DNA of 64,000 bases. Origin: Acidisarcina polymorpha (lineage in GTDB: Bacteria > Acidobacteriota > Terriglobia > Terriglobales > Acidobacteriaceae). Of this stretch, positions 15,685 to 37,616 are shown in pieces. The notes under the pieces are model-generated. The model was given only the letters and a program-made list of their open reading frames with translations. It did not search any database and was not told where the DNA came from. Both the position numbers and the translations under genes were made by a program. The stretch spans positions 1 through 64,000 of the forward strand of contig NZ_CP030843.1 in the NCBI RefSeq assembly GCF_003330725.1. Direction: 5' to 3'. Numbering within the stretch: the first letter of the stretch is position 1; each line of letters opens with the position of its first letter.

Positions 15685-16625
15685 TCACGCTATGTCGAGG
15701 CCGATCGCGTCGTTGACGGCATGGGCAAGGGCCTGTTCGGTGCCGAGATAGCGCTCCGTGGTTTGGATGGAGGCATGGCCAAGCAGCAGCTGGATCTGTT
15801 CGAGCTCCCCGCCCGCCTTTCTGCAGAGTTTCGCGCAGGTGCGACGCAGGTCGTGGGGCGCGAGCTTCCCCAGACCGCTCGTCTTGGCATAGCGCATCAC
15901 CAGGCGCCAGACCGCCTTTTCGTCCCGGATCTCCTCGCCGGCAAGGACCCCCGCCTTGGTGACCGGCCGGAAGAGCCGGCCTTGGCTGATCCCGGAAGCG
16001 CAAAGCCAGGCGTCGATGCGGCTCTTCACCCCGGCCGGCACGGTCACGGTCCGGACCCGGCCACCCTTCCCTGCCATGTCGGGTAGCACCCAGCGACCCT
16101 CCCGCTGCTGGAGGTCTTCTATATTGATCCGGAGCAGCTCCGCCCGGCGCAGCCCGCAGCCGAGCAGCAGGGCGAGGACCGCCCGGTCGCGAATCCCGGG
16201 CAGGGTCTTCGGGCTGGGGGCGTTGAGGAGATCGTTGGCCTGCTCCTTCATCAGCCAGTTCCCTGCCCGGTTGCCGCGCTTCTCAATCCCGGGCACACGC
16301 TCGATGGCCGCGGCCGCGCCGGGTCGAGCAGCTGGTTGTCGGCCATCTCGCGGGCGAGCTTGCGGATTGGTGAGAGCCGGAGGTTGACGGTCGAGGCGGA
16401 GAGCCCCTGGTCGAGGAGTGAGGACCGGTACTGCTGAACCAAAGCTTTTGTAAAGGCCCGGCCGGCCCCGGAGAGCCTGATCCAGGTGAAAAAAGCCTTG
16501 AGACCGGTCTTGTAGGAGCGCCGCGAGTGCTCCGAGGTCACCCCGTTGACCACCAGGTCGATCAGGAATGCCTCCGAGGGCCGGTTCCCTGCCGGTTGGA
16601 GCTCGATCTCGAGTTCGGCGGTCAT
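15685..16625 (-). pseudogene. XerC-like tyrosine recombinase 1, one frameshift
   Basis: The N-terminal core-binding domain (ATG 16625, SRRSYKTGLKAFFTWIRL, LDQGLSASTVNLRLSPIRKL) and the catalytic domain (GCGLRRAELLRI, APHDLRRTCAKL, LLGHASIQTTERYLG with the Tyr) are in different frames, joined by one base near 16300 (…LLDP to AIERVPGIEKR). Arg, His-x-x-Arg, His and Tyr are all present, so it would be active if the break is a sequence error. It is divergent from the small gene at 16769 and paralogous to the recombinase at 32362. Confidence 0.88.
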
Positions 16626-16640
16626 TGGAAAGAGAATAGC

Positions 16641-16660
16641 ACGATAACTGGGATTATCGG
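16641..16660. promoter_or_regulatory. inverted repeat between divergent genes (operator candidate)
   Basis: CGATAA at 16642-16647 and TTATCG at 16654-16659 form a 6-bp inverted repeat with a 6-bp spacer in the ~140-bp gap between the recombinase and the HTH-like gene. It could be bound by the latter. Confidence 0.3.
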
Positions 16661-18140: not shown

Positions 18141-18571
18141 AAGCCGGCAAGGCAAAGGCACACCCGCAGGCCAAGGAGCAAATGAATCTAAGCTGGGGTG
18201 CTTGCGTGAAACCCCACAGAACAGGGTTTAAATCCCTGCTCTTTTGGGAGATCAACTCGGATTTGTGCCTCCAGGCGCGAGCGCGAACGCCGCGCCGAGG
18301 CACCAACGCCACTGACACATCAGCCCTGAACGTGCAGCAAGAACTTCACCCGCGATGAGACGAAAGTCAAGAGCTTTCAAGACAGCTGCTAGTTTGCTAG
18401 CTTTCACTTAAATCAGGCCGTGGAAATGTCGGGACCGTGCAAAGCATGGAACGAGAAAGCCGTCCAACCCTTCGCACCGCCCCTTGCAAGACACCGGTGA
18501 AGCTGGGCGTCTTGCACATTCCCACCGCCTGGGCGACGGGGTTTTCTTTTAAAGACCTATAAACACGACCG
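18141..18571. other. intergenic region with a tRNA-T-arm-like stretch
   Basis: A CAGGGTTTAAATCCCTG segment around 18223 resembles a T-arm, but I find no acceptor or anticodon arms that complete a cloverleaf. The rest shows no gene. Remnant tRNA ends are common at integration sites, so the location beside recombinase-linked genes is suggestive only. Confidence 0.25.
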
Positions 18572-19036
18572 GTGAAATGGTCTCGCGATCTCTACCCCAT
18601 TCGCGAGCGGGCCGCGAACGCCCGGACCGAGACCTGGGGGCGCCTGGACATCGAACGGCTCTTCGGCGTCGGCCGCGCCTCCGCCCAAGGCCTGATGAAG
18701 GCCATCGGCGAAGTGCAGCCGGTTGGCAGGGCTCACTTCGTCGAGCGTACTTCCCTGCTCGGCTTTCTTGACGCGATGATTGCCGCGGAGGACTTCGACG
18801 AGGCCTTCCGCTCCCGCATGCGGGAGGCCGATGCACCCCCGTATACCAAGCCGTTGAAGGTGAGCTTGCCTGCCGGTCTTCGCACCGTGATGCTGCGCGA
18901 CCTTCCCCCCAATATCTCGCTCACTCCCGGCAGATTGGAGATCATCGCCAACTCCTCGATCGCGATGCTGGAGAGCCTCGCCCTCCTCGCCCAGGCGATG
19001 CAGAACGATTTTCTTCACGTCCAGGCGATTCTTGAT
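18572..19036 (+). pseudogene. HTH-like small protein, paralogue 2, interrupted
   Basis: From GTG 18572 the sequence parallels paralogues 1 and 3: WGRLDIERLFGVGRASAQGL then MKAIG (helix-turn-helix region), VGRAHFVERTSLLGFLDAM, and LPPNISLTPGRLEIIANSSI. The family tail is missing at the expected place; the frame drifts into unrelated residues to 19312. The lost tail reappears at 19330, so ~290 bp have been inserted or rearranged. Confidence 0.7.
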
Positions 19037-19188
19037 CCGTGCCCGCGCCTCCCTCAGGCCAAGCCGACGATCTCCGAGCCTTTCTCAACGGACTTCGTAG
19101 TCCGAGGTAAGGTAGGATTGCGCCGGACGTGGGCACTGTTTCCCCGGAGATCCATCAGCACGAACGACGCTGCTGTGAGCTGCTCCCC

Positions 19189-19305
19189 TCACAAGCCATC
19201 CGCGATCGCCGCAAGGCGCTCAAAGCCTTCAGCAACAGTGTATTCGTTACGCTCGCAAAATGCTGAAAAACGGTTCCAGTCAGCAACTCTAATTCGCAAG
19301 GTCAT
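19189..19305 (-). pseudogene. C-terminal fragment of a second partition-partner (RHH-like) gene
   Basis: The ~38 residues from 19305 (TLRIRVADWNRFSAFCERNE, then YTVAEGFERL) align by pattern with the C-terminus of the complete gene at 19438-19770 ([34 protein letters not shown]). It lacks any N-terminal half. It lies inside paralogue 2, between its body and its tail. Confidence 0.5.
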
Positions 19306-19329
19306 GGGCTGAGCCTTGTGCTTGGATGC

Positions 19330-19437: not shown

Positions 19438-19770
19438 CTACTCCCCTGCTGAATCCAGCAGTTTCTTTATGGCATCGTGATAGGTCAACTCGTATCGATT
19501 CGCATAGCTAACAAATCGGTCGTATTGAGACTGAATCATACGAACCGCTAGAGAGCGCATCGGTTCGGCTGGGGTTCGGCGTCGCCTAACAGGTCTTGAA
19601 CTGGCCTCGCGACTTACAAACCCGTGCTGCGCCGCAGCAGCATCCACTTCCGCGAGGTCGATTGGAGCTCTTTTTCGTATGGGAGCAAATCTCGACAGAT
19701 CGATCTTTTGGGTCGCCGCCGCTGTCGAGTTGTCGTCTGCTTCATCCATGAGGCCGAATTTACTGCTCAT
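19438..19770 (-). CDS. ParA partner protein (ribbon-helix-helix-type centromere binder candidate)
   Basis: About 110 residues from ATG 19770 ([13 protein letters not shown]), overlapping the end of parA by 11 bp as is usual for partition operons. The N-terminus is disordered and acidic, the middle is rich in Arg/Lys ([12 protein letters not shown]), and the C-terminal ~40 residues ([20 protein letters not shown]) have the spacing of a beta strand plus two helices. It likely binds the CAATAT repeats upstream of parA and represses the operon. The family is inferred from position. Confidence 0.65.
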
Positions 19771-20467
19771 TCGGGTACCTCTTTCTGTCAATCTCGTAAA
19801 GGATCTGAACCAATTCATCTACCAGTTCATGGATATTTTGATAAGCGGCTTCCAGATTCCCGACCTTGTGCTCACCAAGCTCCGCAAGGGTTAGCCTTTC
19901 GACAAAGATCGCCTTGAATGCGAGACGTTCTGCAAGACTTGTATTAAATCGAGGAACTTTGGCCTCTTGAAGCTCAGCTTCCAATTGACGCTGCACAGAG
20001 GATACAGGGGCACCAGGTGCAGGAGTTCGAGTCATGAGGACCCGAAAAGGTATTTTGCGGTACAAACTTGACCGCTGAGCTACCTTCTCCTCATCTTTGA
20101 CGGCTTTGATTGCTTTTCCTGCTTGCCTAACATCCACCGCGCTGGCTTGTACCGGAATAATCACAAAGTCTGACATTGCGATCGATCGCGAGACCAGAAC
20201 ACTGGCAGTACCCTCCAAGTCGATGAAAACAAACTGTTCTCGTCTCTCGTCGAGAGTCTCCATGAGATTTGATTCCCTGATGGACCCTATGACTTTCAAG
20301 CTGGTCTTCGAAGAACCATTTATTTTCCAATCCATTATTGGCTGGTTTGGATCTGCATCAAGGACACAGACGGACGCTCCGCCTTGGGCCAGATACGTGG
20401 CAAGCAGCAGTGTCGTCGTGCTTTTGCCCGCCCCGCCTTTCGGATTAGAAACAGCAATGACCGGCAT
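19760..20467 (-). CDS. ParA/VirC1-like partition ATPase
   Basis: 235 residues with a deviant Walker A ([20 protein letters not shown]), an A' motif ([10 protein letters not shown]), and Walker B-like hydrophobic strand ([17 protein letters not shown]). It lacks an N-terminal DNA-binding domain, so it is of the short (type Ib) plasmid class also similar to VirC1-like ParA proteins. It positions the replicon or an integrated element during division, working with the gene at 19438. A plasmid or ICE origin for the block is inferred from this gene. Confidence 0.92.
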
Positions 20468-26732: not shown

Positions 26733-26759
26733 ACCTTCTGGCGATCGCCGCCAGAAGGT
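26733..26759. terminator. second perfect hairpin
   Basis: ACCTTCTGGCG (26733-26743) and CGCCAGAAGGT (26749-26759) form a perfect 11-bp stem with a 5-base loop. With the preceding hairpin it makes a double terminator-like structure after the SBBP gene. Confidence 0.55.
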
Positions 26760-26992
26760 CAGGGCAAAAGAGGCTCTGTCTCCCTCGTGCTGTCACCGGG
26801 TTTTTCCGCTTTGTGTCCATGCGGGCGCTAAGGCGCTAAAGCGGCAGCTTACACAGGCAAGACATTGCTGGCGAGATGACGCCCATTTTCATGGACGTGA
26901 CAGAGATCAAGCTTTTTCAGTAAATCCCGAATGGTCCACACCGTTTACCCACGACAACACCGGTTGTCGCGGGGGATGCGATGGGAGAAAAT

Positions 26993-27030: not shown

Positions 27031-27070
27031 CTGCGAGCAGGCTCAGTAACCCATTCATTTTCGGAGCATG

Positions 27071-27538
27071 GGAAACAGTAGGATCTATGAAGAACAGGGC
27101 TGCGGAAAAAATACTGGCCGGCCACAACTCGAAGGATGTCTTGAGAGCCTTCGTGAGGGCGACACCCTTGTCGTCTGGAGACTAGACCGGCTTGGAAGAA
27201 ACTCGGCCGATCTTGTCAGGCTTAATGCCGAACTCGAACAGCGCAATCAATCTTGAATCACTTACCGAAAAGATTGAAACTCGTTCTCCAGCTGGCCGCC
27301 TGGTGTTCCACGTCTTCGCGGCCCTAGCAGAATTCGAGCGCAATTTGATCCGCGAAAGAACGGTTGCTGGCCTTCAAATCAGCTCGCGCTCGCGGCCGCA
27401 AAGGAGGTCGCCTCCTAAAGAGATTAAGACCATACGCGCCCTACTCAAAACCACAGATGTCCCTGGACCGAAATCGCAGCCCGTTTCGGCATCGCCCGAT
27501 CAACCCTGTACCGTGCGGTACTCAAACCTGCGGCGTGA
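27071..27538 (+). pseudogene. serine recombinase (DNA invertase/resolvase) remnant
   Basis: The first ~35 residues with the catalytic serine are missing. The remaining order is normal: YEEQGCGKNTGRPQLEG, VVWRLDRLGRNSADLV, then in a second frame SPAGRLVFHVFAALAEFERN then LIRERTVAGL, then ARARGRKGGR and the C-terminal helix-turn-helix (IARSTLYRAV) in yet other frames. At least three frame changes occur, so this is a true pseudogene. Confidence 0.85.
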
Positions 27539-27667
27539 TGCCCGAGATCGGTAGCCAATCGCAATCCCTTTTTGCAGCCCAAATCGCTGGACTTTGGGTC
27601 AACCCAAGGTTGGCTAAATCGAAGCTACGGAAAACGTTTTGCGGGCACATCCCGGTGGGGTAGATCC

Positions 27668-31224: not shown

Positions 31225-31807
31225 CTTCAGAACCCCGGCACGAGCGCTATAACGACCTCAGGATGGCGGCAAGGATCAGTTTTTAAGGAATATCGAGAAA
31301 GGTATGGGCATTACGGACAAGGCCGTATTTCTTCCGGTCGCGGGGCGGAATTCTTGATGGATTTCCAGAAAGATCCATCAGAAGAAGTGCTTGACGGCTT
31401 GAGCTGCGTCGGGCGTATCCTATAGATGACTTCCGGCGGGCTCCACCCCACCGGAAGGGTGCTACACCTGCTTTACCTCATGAGGCAGAGCAGAGCTGCA
31501 ATCCACCGCAAGGGCAAATGGATTGCAAGGTTGAAGCGCATGTTTATAGAGAACATGACTTCTACCTCCTTTCAACGGGAATGACGGCCCTGTTCGCGCA
31601 GGGCCGTGTTGCTTTGGCAACCTCGGTTTTGCCCCTGCTCTAACCAAACGCACATTGTGAAGCCCCGCTAAAAGCGCAGCTCTAGTGTACCTAGCGAGCT
31701 TTCGTCCTGCGCGCAGGTATTCGCTTTTCCTTCGCTCACCCTGCTACCGATTCTGGGGTTAGCGCAATCTCCGACGCCTTCCTCAAAGTCTAAGCAAGCC
31801 ACGATCG
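31225..31807. other. structured intergenic region without gene
   Basis: Contains a perfect 9-bp hairpin at 31584-31607 (ACGGCCCTG / CAGGGCCGT) and several weaker inverted segments, including a CCACCCCACCGGAA stretch similar to one just before paralogue 3 (21644). No protein frame is convincing. A small RNA or recombination site is possible. Confidence 0.35.
31584..31607. terminator. GC-rich hairpin
   Basis: ACGGCCCTG-TTCGCG-CAGGGCCGT, followed on the plus strand by TGTTGCTTTGG. It has the shape of an intrinsic terminator with a poor U-tract and would insulate the recombinase operon. Confidence 0.5.
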
Positions 31808-31833
31808 CCAACAACAATGTCGATTGTTGTTGG
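31808..31833. promoter_or_regulatory. perfect palindromic operator candidate
   Basis: An 11-bp perfect inverted repeat with a 4-bp centre (CCAACAACAAT-GTCG-ATTGTTGTTGG), ending 22 bp before the HNH gene start. Its position over the expected promoter or leader suggests a repressor site, perhaps for one of the HTH-like paralogues. Confidence 0.6.
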
Positions 31834-31855
31834 TGATGCGGCCTATACTGCTTTC

Positions 31856-32365
31856 ATGGCAGAATTCCAGCTGTTGCCTTCCGCCAGCTCGCTTTCGTCC
31901 CTACCCCCGGGCTTCCCGCGGCCGGCTGGCAGGATCCTGACCTCAAACCCCCTCGTCTCCCGGCCTGCCCCTCTCGAGCCGAGAAAGGAAGTCAGGCGTT
32001 CCCGGCAGCGGGTGCTCTTCTGCCGCTGCGGGTCGAGTTCGATCTGGGCCCGCGGTCTCTGCCAGCGCTGTTACAGCCGGGTGCGGGCCGATGAAAGACA
32101 CTTTGCCGGACTACGCGATCGGGTGCTCGCCCGGGACCGTCATACCTGTCAGGGATGCCAGGCGACCTCGATCTCGACCGTCCTCGCTGTCCATCATCGC
32201 CAGCCGGGCGTCTCCTCGCTTGAACTTCTGGTCACCCTCTGCCCGGCCTGCCATGCCTTGGTCGAACGCACCCAGGTGCTCTTTCGCGATGTGCCCGAAC
32301 TTCTCCGGCTGCTCTGGCGGGAGCTCCACCCGGCGGCGAGCGAGCAGCTGCCGCTCTTCCTATGA
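31856..32365 (+). CDS. HNH endonuclease
   Basis: 169 residues from ATG 31856 (the frame opens earlier at 31817 but inside the palindrome). A zinc-finger-like CRCGSSSIWARGLCQRC precedes the HNH core: RDRHTCQGC, VLAVHHRQPG and LVTLCPACHALVE (two CxxC pairs plus the HH). It nicks or cuts DNA. The stop overlaps the recombinase start by four bases (ATGA), so the two are translationally coupled and probably act together in element mobility or target-site processing. Confidence 0.85.
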   Translation: MAEFQLLPSASSLSSLPPGFPRPAGRILTSNPLVSRPAPLEPRKEVRRSRQRVLFCRCGSSSIWARGLCQRCYSRVRADERHFAGLRDRVLARDRHTCQGCQATSISTVLAVHHRQPGVSSLELLVTLCPACHALVERTQVLFRDVPELLRLLWRELHPAASEQLPLFL

Positions 32366-33282
32366 CCGGCTCCGCCCTGGTCCCGATCGCGCCGCCGACG
32401 CCGGCAACTTTCGACTGGCTCCGCGCGACGGTGCTGGCCGGCGTTGCCTCTCCGTATTCGAAGCGCAATTACTCGCGGGCCTTCGACGAGCTGGGAAAGT
32501 TCCTGGATTCGATCGAAGAACCGCTCTCGCGCTCGAGCCTAGTCGCCTACCGGACGCAGCTCCTCGAGCGGGGTCTCTCGGCTTCTACGATTAATGTCCA
32601 ACTCTCGGCGATCCGCCAGCTGGCCGCTGAGGCCCGACGCACCGGGATCCTCGACGCTGAGACCGCGGCCTCGATCACCGATGTCCCCAATGTCCGCCAG
32701 CAGGGCACCCGGACGGGAAACTGGCTCAGCCGCGACCAGGCGAAAGAGCTGCTCGCCGTGCCCAACCAGGAGAAGCTGATCGGCAAGCGCGACCATGCTC
32801 TTCTGGCCCTCCTGCTTGGCTGCGGACTACGCCGTCAGGAACTGGCCGTGCTCAAATTTGAGGACATCGTCGAGCGCGAAAGCCGAGCGGTGATCGTCGA
32901 CCTGGTGGGGAAGGGAAGGCGCGTCCGGACGGTGGCCGTGCCCTTCTGGGTCAAGCAGAGCATCGACCGCTGGACAGCCGCTGCTGACATTCAAGATGGG
33001 CCCCTGCTCCGGCCGGTTTCGAAGTCCGGCAAACCGGGCAAAGTGGCACTCGGCGATTGGTCGGTCTGGTCGGTCGTCGAACGGTGCGCCAAGGAGATCG
33101 GCATCCAAAATTTCGGCGCCCATGACCTGCGCCGGACCTGCGCGAAGCTTTGCCGGAAGTCGGGTGGCGATCTAGAGCAGATCAAGTTCCTACTTGGGCA
33201 CTCGTCGATTCAGACCACCGAACGCTATCTCGGGTCTGAGCAAGAGATTGCCGTGGCCGTCAATGACACCTGGAGCTTTTAA
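32362..33282 (+). CDS. XerC-like tyrosine recombinase 2
   Basis: 306 residues, intact. Core-binding domain at ~15-100 (YSKRNYSRAFDELGKFLD, LLERGLSASTINVQLSAIRQ), catalytic domain with LLLGCGLRRQELAVL (Arg), FGAHDLRRTCAKLCRK (His-x-x-Arg), LLGHSSIQTTERYLG (His and nucleophilic Tyr). It is clearly paralogous to recombinase 1 at 15685. It is likely the integrase of the block, with the ~108-bp repeats as possible substrates. Confidence 0.95.
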   Translation: MTGSALVPIAPPTPATFDWLRATVLAGVASPYSKRNYSRAFDELGKFLDSIEEPLSRSSLVAYRTQLLERGLSASTINVQLSAIRQLAAEARRTGILDAETAASITDVPNVRQQGTRTGNWLSRDQAKELLAVPNQEKLIGKRDHALLALLLGCGLRRQELAVLKFEDIVERESRAVIVDLVGKGRRVRTVAVPFWVKQSIDRWTAAADIQDGPLLRPVSKSGKPGKVALGDWSVWSVVERCAKEIGIQNFGAHDLRRTCAKLCRKSGGDLEQIKFLLGHSSIQTTERYLGSEQEIAVAVNDTWSF

Positions 33283-33440
33283 CACGAATTGCTCGGAAAT
33301 GACCGCAGGGCTGGTGACAGCGGAGCATCTCGGTTTAATGAATCTCAGTTTAATGATAAGAATGGTTCTTTGTTGGAGTGTTTATGTCTCATGCGTCCCA
33401 TGCGGCTCACGTCGCCACCCTGATTGATGATCTGCCAGTG

Positions 33441-37078: not shown

Positions 37079-37390
37079 TCAGCTCGTGAGTGGTAGGCGT
37101 CGGCCGTGGCGGATGTGCAGGATGTAGACCACGTCGTTTTCGATAGTGAAGAGAACCCGATAGGTGTGAGGCTTTTGGCCGTAGAGCAGATGGCGCACTT
37201 CAAAGGGAAACAGCCTGTTCTCAGGCGCAATGGGGCAACGCTTCGGGGATTCCGCTAGGGAGGCAACGGCACCGTTCATGCGCTGAAACCATCGCAGACC
37301 GGTATCACCGGCATGTTGTGCTAGCAGCCAATCGAGGATGTTTGTCGCGTCTTCTTCCGCTTGCGGAGTGATTTCAACGCGGAAAGTCAT
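37079..37390 (-). CDS. ParE/RelE-family toxin
   Basis: 103 residues: VEITPQAEEDATNILDWLLA at the N-terminus, a helical middle (LRWFQRMNGAVASLAESPKR) and the C-terminal strands VRHLLYGQKPHTYRVLFTIE, VVYILHIRHGRR, the hallmark of the ParE/RelE fold. It inhibits gyrase or ribosomes. Its start overlaps the upstream antitoxin gene by 17 bp, forming a type II pair. Confidence 0.9.
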   Translation of the reverse strand: MTFRVEITPQAEEDATNILDWLLAQHAGDTGLRWFQRMNGAVASLAESPKRCPIAPENRLFPFEVRHLLYGQKPHTYRVLFTIENDVVYILHIRHGRRLPLTS

Positions 37391-37616
37391 GCTTGGCGCG
37401 TAACTCTTCCATGAATGCGGCGGCCGGACGTGTGCGCCCCGCTTTTACGTCCGCGTATCCCCGGCGGATACCCTCAACCGCTTCCTGAAAGTCTTGGCGC
37501 TCCCACTCGAAAGCATCGCGCAAAACTTCATCCAGCGCCGTCGTGGGGTCTTGCCCGTGCCGGAGCGCATAGTCGTTGAGCTGCGCCTGACGTTCGGGTG
37601 TGAGCTGGAGTGCCAT
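37374..37616 (-). CDS. ParD-type antitoxin
   Basis: 80 residues: LTPERQAQLNDYALRHGQDP then a helix (ALDEVLRDAFEWERQDFQEA) and the toxin-wrapping C-terminus (IRRGYADVKAGRTRPAAAF). It precedes and overlaps the toxin gene. It should form a DNA-binding complex that autoregulates the pair. Confidence 0.85.
   Translation of the reverse strand: MALQLTPERQAQLNDYALRHGQDPTTALDEVLRDAFEWERQDFQEAVEGIRRGYADVKAGRTRPAAAFMEELRAKHDFPR

Follow-up and report, generated by a model that had tools for sequence, protein, structure and literature searches.

The inverted repeat in front of the nuclease and recombinase genes of the window is probably the core crossover site of the adjacent Xer-like tyrosine recombinase (REC), and the two would form a single-enzyme module of the Xer/dif kind (or cre/loxP kind) belonging to Acidobacteriaceae plasmids. 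The window, which is the whole stretch of DNA that was analysed, comprises bases 1–64000 of contig C4 (196,405 bp) in an Acidobacteriaceae genome of 7.6 Mb and five contigs. Across related loci the site is conserved, its spacer is diverse, homology breaks at or near it, the neighbouring genes are of plasmid type and the nuclease slot between site and REC is exchangeable. In the proposed mechanism, each half-site would be bound by REC protomers, with cleavage at the two ends of the 6-bp spacer and strand exchange between this site and another copy. The outcome would be resolution of plasmid multimers, and a partner site on another replicon would lead to plasmid integration or exchange. Since REC would bind just before its own operon, it probably represses that operon as well. 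From the sequence comparisons below, plasmid multimer resolution and integration are the most likely functions of the module, and integration may be the main one.

The dif-like site and the adjacent recombinase in the window

The palindrome of the preliminary description, CCAACAACAAT-GTCG-ATTGTTGTTGG at 31808–31833, is present with its 11-bp arms, and it ends 22 bp before the HNH start codon (ATG, 31856) as described. The centre GTCG is not self-complementary, so that 22 of the 26 bases pair, and the arms extend to 15 nt with one mismatch. The palindrome itself contains a mechanical ORF start, at 31817, and the start at 31856 is the one common to the paralogues. Perfect repeats with arms of at least 11 bp and a spacer of at most 12 bp are found at three positions of the window (26733, 31808 and 36668), compared with one repeat in total across ten first-order Markov controls of window length; the palindrome is therefore beyond chance, yet not unique in the window. 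The other two repeats, at 26733 and 36668, are possibly terminators. The exact 26-mer occurs once genome-wide, even with three mismatches allowed.

The palindrome falls within a 28-bp dif-like site, in which a half-site of 11 bp (31807–31817) and a second of 11 bp (31824–31834) flank the 6-bp spacer TGTCGA (31818–31823). Like sites of the Xer/dif type, it thus has two half-sites of about 11 bp with a partial dyad around a 6-bp centre. The core ACAAT-N4-ATTGT is kept in the paralogues; the full 26-bp symmetry is private to the window copy. The features of the window are collected in Table 1.

Table 1. Features of the window that bear on the module (HTH, helix-turn-helix-like; positions are those of the window)
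Feature	Position	Strand	Basis or remark
Second REC (other subfamily), frameshifted	15706..16565	-	Same contig as the window copy of REC
Site of the second REC, CGATAA-N6-TTATCG	16642..16659	-	One each on C3, C4 and C5
Member of the HTH-like family found beside sites in relatives	18563..19309 (stop-to-stop range)	+	phmmer 1.9e-33
ParA-like partition ATPase	19763..20467 (stop-to-stop range)	-	phmmer 6.8e-29 to the ParA of L027
Orphan dif-like site, TTTACCCACGACAA-CACCGG-TTGTCGCGGGGGA	26942..26979	+	PWM score 20.2
Segment common to the window and C5 copies (93%)	31772..33438	+	DNA homology
dif-like core site	31807..31834	+	Inverted repeat; related sites in paralogues and relatives
HNH-type nuclease with N-terminal Cys pairs, 169 aa	31856..32365	+	phrog_119 HNH 3.9e-8
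Xer-like tyrosine recombinase (REC), 306 aa	32362..33282	+	Phage_integrase 3.9e-22

REC matches the XerC model at 5e-31, which is under the equivalog cut-off of that model, and the related solved structures are XerC-like 4a8e, XerD, XerA and XerH. The window copy retains R157, K184, H254, R257, H280 and Y289, which we take to be the catalytic residues; it thus has the intact residues of an Xer-like recombinase. The HNH stop and the REC start share the ATGA at 32362–32365, as reported.

Copies of the unit are found on other contigs of the genome. The C5 copy (L002) has a REC that is 94% identical to the window REC and free of internal stops; in this otherwise open frame Lys184 of the GKG motif, probably a catalytic residue by our reading, is replaced by Thr, so the C5 REC may be inactive. 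In the C3 copy, whose homology with the window reaches approximately 33391, both HNH and REC are frameshifted, and the largest contig, C1, carries a broken related unit with the HNH gene largely deleted. The flanks outside the shared segment are unrelated. The second REC type of this genome is directly preceded by GCACCCGATAA-TCCCAG-TTATCGTGC, and the three GATAA-type sites of the genome, on C3, C4 and C5, carry one and the same spacer, which implies that spacers do not always keep plasmids apart. Each small contig retains at least one open REC: on C4 this is the window copy, on C3 it is the other type, and C5 has both. Many REC fragments, often C-terminal, are scattered in this genome (G000), and further fragments are found around the Terriglobus roseus element (G042:C1:3750001-3870000).

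Further features were noted in the window. The orphan site has canonical half-sites and lies 4.8 kb from the palindrome, with no REC match adjoining, and near it is a serine-resolvase-like remnant at 27068–27554 (ORF translations judged by eye). On the minus strand, 37079–37616 holds a ParE-like toxin and antitoxin-like ORF pair, named from translation only.

Recurrence of the site beside related recombinases

To compare the site between loci, we used 117 REC relatives outside this genome, comprising 80 kept of 373 in genome_contigs and 37 in viral contigs; overlapping extracts of one own-genome place were counted once. The exact core ACAAT-N4-ATTGT has 22 matches in the 947 kb of relatives and own-genome loci, corresponding to 15 distinct sites, and every one of them is upstream of a REC. 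A 38-bp site profile was applied with a threshold of 15 (best score in one shuffle, 10.4); its 18 training strings came from these same loci, three of them repeating own-genome copies. The profile is partly circular, and 12 of the 27 sites that it found were not seeds. At a REC identity of 56% or higher, 25 of 42 loci have the site (among them the window and three own-genome copies), which gives the gene linkage typical of Xer/dif recombinases, and a profile match is present in 2 of the 43 more distant loci (below 56% identity); both counts cover own-genome and genome_contigs loci. The viral-contig loci L108, L110 and L111 score just over 15. Among the 17 close loci in which no site was recognized, 12 are at contig ends or 5′-truncated, and L035, L044, L050, L051 and L052 have a close REC and no evident reason for the lack of a recognized site.

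The recurrent site reads RCGACAA-N6-TTGTC or, in variants, GATAA/TTATC. Hardly any variation is seen in the inner columns of the half-sites, and the spacer shows 21 versions across the 27 sites. The preliminary description had suggested looking for a conserved palindrome upstream of homologous pairs; the dyad core does recur, and the exact symmetry does not. With a looser pattern, ten whole genomes give 51 strand matches compared with 26 for the reversed control, and REC adjoins 13 of the 22 looser-pattern places that were extracted. Two Edaphobacter genomes (L163 and L164) have sites that resemble the dif-like site with no REC match adjoining.

In the sister subfamily, which includes the second REC type of this genome, sites similar to CGATAA-N6-TTATCG precede REC in L066, L070, L074 and L087, with this motif itself in L070 and L074. 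The motif, read from the printed sequence, also precedes REC on the conjugative plasmid pACIX905 of Granulicella tundricola, and pPfer1 has a more distant version, a TATAA-N6-TTATA dyad, before REC. Taken singly, the GATAA-type dyads are mostly not beyond shuffles, 15–58 of 100 being as good, and the case for them rests on recurrence. A de novo dyad scan upstream of RECs found 15 of 120 stretches in which at most 5 of 100 single-base shuffles were as good; its 300-bp reach misses sites before YhcG or HNH, which makes it weak as a blind test.

The position of the site could also be that of a transcriptional operator of the nuclease–recombinase operon, bound by a divergent HTH protein or another regulator. 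In 25 of the 27 cases the site is just upstream of the first gene, be it HNH, YhcG or REC; HTH genes are found in 18 of the 117 REC loci, all 18 on the strand opposite to REC. However, a variable 6-bp spacer between Xer-like half-sites and homology that breaks at or near the site speak against an operator, as does the window unit, which has its site without a neighbouring HTH gene. In L061 the site, with 13 of 14 pairs, is behind REC, although a mechanical 111-aa ORF begins within it, so the site could serve another gene. In L068 the profile matches weakly behind REC, and the dyad scan gives nothing there. On this evidence, an operator as the main role, as first suggested for the palindrome, is unlikely, and the crossover site is the preferred reading.

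Homology breaks and plasmid context

The points at which homology between loci begins or ends are consistent with recombination at the crossover site. In L027 and L063, the left flank (ParA, a small protein and an HTH gene) is identical at 113 of 120 positions up to the site; from its left edge onward, the identities are 12/13 in the left half-site, 3/6 in the spacer, 9/13 in the right half-site and 35/120 in the right flank. L048 and L049 show the opposite pattern, with 22/120 in the left flank followed by a unit of 1005 bp at 100% identity, which begins at the left edge of the site and runs 5 bp beyond the REC stop. L028 and L042 have common left flanks until approximately 16 bp before the site, after which one continues with YhcG–REC and the other with REC. 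In L004, a flank that matches the flank of the other REC type at approximately 90% identity ends approximately 20 bp before the site and is joined to the HNH–REC module. For the window, C5 and C3 copies, homology starts 30–60 bp left of the site and not at the site itself.

An identical 1005-bp unit in two unrelated surroundings, together with the several copies in this genome and its numerous REC fragments, would also be compatible with a small transposable element of the tyrosine-recombinase type, with the palindrome as its left end and plasmid maintenance secondary. Against this, a consistent right end is lacking, as the shared segments stop near the REC stop or 100–150 bp beyond it; moreover, the loci with a site have one site per REC, often with partition genes as left neighbours. 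We regard this explanation as very unlikely. A second crossover site within the 3′ end of REC was checked by eye in L048, found unconvincing and dropped.

Paired sites provide a further view of the crossover reading. The L048 and L049 sites are 37 kb apart, have the same spacer and flank a stretch with Rep- and ParA-like genes, and Terriglobus roseus has two sites 90 kb apart with spacers that differ by one base and ParA inside. Each segment also holds an ORF that we read as a conjugative relaxase, and both segments look like integrated plasmids. Both ends of the G047 island bear REC, which one simple integration does not account for. A search for the empty site of this island gave nothing; the left neighbour gene, used as the query, had a single match among 200 genomes, 54% identical. 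The 37-kb segment (L175–L177, G047:C4) also has an apparent CRISPR-Cas locus beside the Rep- and ParA-like genes, a reading based solely on ORF translations.

The neighbours in the 117 REC loci, searched from few seeds, include ParA in 14, HTH in 18 and RepA in 3, and on pACIX905 both RepA and ParA adjoin REC. In the window, ParA is no direct neighbour of the module; the ParA and HTH genes are approximately 10–13 kb off, near the other REC type. ParA is present on C3, C4 and C5, as expected for a multimer-resolution system on a replicon with partition or replication genes. A contig with plasmid genes and a tyrosine-recombinase family protein beside a palindrome might also suggest a telomere resolvase with a hairpin target. 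We give this almost no credence and rejected it, since REC matches Xer models, the dyads of the sites are imperfect and their spacers variable, and the site is internal to contig C4.

Compared with known systems, the proposed crossover module looks like an unusual version of an established plasmid-maintenance machinery. The closest working models are XerS/difSL, XerH/difH and plasmid resolution systems such as cre/loxP. As in XerS/difSL, XerH/difH and XerA/dif, there is one Xer-like recombinase. For XerS/difSL (PMC2731167) and XerH/difH (PMC5357621), a single recombinase is described together with a genetically linked dif-like site, in which two inverted repeats flank a central region, and the REC gene resembles these two in its linkage to such a site. 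Unlike the Xer/dif modules, REC occurs on plasmids, some of them apparently integrated, and not at the chromosome terminus, its half-sites are ACAA/TTGT or GATAA/TTATC, and a nuclease gene may sit between site and REC. The sites are on small contigs with ParA and on the plasmids pACIX905 and pPfer1, not at a chromosome terminus, and we therefore file the module as a plasmid variant and not as a chromosomal dif system. The multimer-resolution systems of plasmids include cre/loxP of P1 and ResD/rfsF of F, which likewise have a plasmid-borne tyrosine recombinase with its site adjoining the gene. The spacer of loxP is 8 bp, in contrast to 6 bp here, and we know of no nuclease slot in the Cre or ResD loci. 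A predicted recombinase with its own 28-bp site would make plasmid integration and module exchange in Acidobacteriaceae traceable by sequence.

The nuclease slot

In the proposed module, the HNH protein would be a translationally coupled accessory nuclease, and its slot may hold YhcG or be empty. The HNH protein matches the IscB model at 4.7e-6 and Pfam HNH at 0.0058, each under its cut-off, and resembles IscB-type and phage HNH nucleases in the HNH core; with only 169 aa, it has no room for the other IscB domains. The Cys and His residues of the core pattern CxxC, HH, N, CxxCH are mostly conserved, with C98, C101, H113, H114, C129 and H133 kept in seven aligned members. At what we take to be the position of the central Asn of the HNH motif, this residue is absent, being Leu in the window protein and Met in five of the seven. 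The structure model has a mean pLDDT of 49.8, which is too poor for a fold search.

The 27 sites are followed by HNH in four cases, by full-length YhcG in nine and directly by REC in twelve, and two sites are behind REC. The four HNH-followed sites are the own-genome copies, one with HNH largely deleted, and among the twelve site-then-REC loci the REC frame is broken in L031, L053 and L063. YhcG/DUF1016 proteins (PADLOC PDC-S02) are PD-(D/E)XK nucleases with a fold unrelated to HNH, and are absent from the window unit; the identity of YhcG was established by Pfam on three of the nine loci and by PADLOC PDC-S02 on two. The YhcG and REC ORFs overlap by 4 nt in L028. The slot thus appears, from these gene orders, to be one that holds HNH, the unrelated YhcG nuclease or nothing, and HNH is optional.

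Only 1 of the 117 REC relatives outside this genome has a recognizable adjacent HNH, and an obligate HNH–REC unit was rejected on this count. The exception, L087, is a second HNH–REC pair in the order ParA–HTH–site–HNH–REC with a site of the sister type, and its HNH and REC frames overlap if REC starts at an assumed TTG. In L048, an HNH gene is more than 3 kb from REC. The HNH family is present in 13 of 299 Terriglobia genomes, this genome included, which yielded 30 HNH loci. Thirteen rows have a same-strand serine recombinase upstream (L221 and L226 are one place, and some rows are partial), and a tyrosine REC is upstream in 2 of the 30, both in this genome; of the remaining 15, L225 has a recombinase encoded on the other strand, and a fragment lies at a distance in L230.

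The L087 pair and the same-family HNHs behind serine recombinases make the nuclease–recombinase link recurrent across recombinase classes. Together with YhcG in nine loci, they show that the dyad and the nuclease–recombinase coupling recur in other loci, which is the check that the preliminary description had set itself. A joint reaction of nuclease and recombinase under one operator, as first proposed, is hypothetical, given the single adjacent HNH among the outside relatives and the twelve sites followed by REC with no nuclease. These loci raise the question of why a small nuclease should be in one operon with plasmid recombinases of both classes. Small nucleases of unrelated folds (HNH and PD-(D/E)XK) might have been recruited repeatedly as co-expressed partners of both classes, and may target recombination intermediates or copies of the site that are foreign or have stayed unresolved; we consider this quite unlikely. 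If so, they might cut stalled junctions or rival plasmids with the same site. PDC in PDC-S02 stands for phage-defence candidate; because YhcG matches it, a defence role is as plausible as a recombination role. A search of titles and abstract openings found no description of a two-component nuclease–recombinase plasmid system. Lastly, in L200 (pACIX903), L213, L227 and L231, HNH genes of the same family are directly behind serine recombinases, and the frames overlap in L200, by 4 nt, and in L213.
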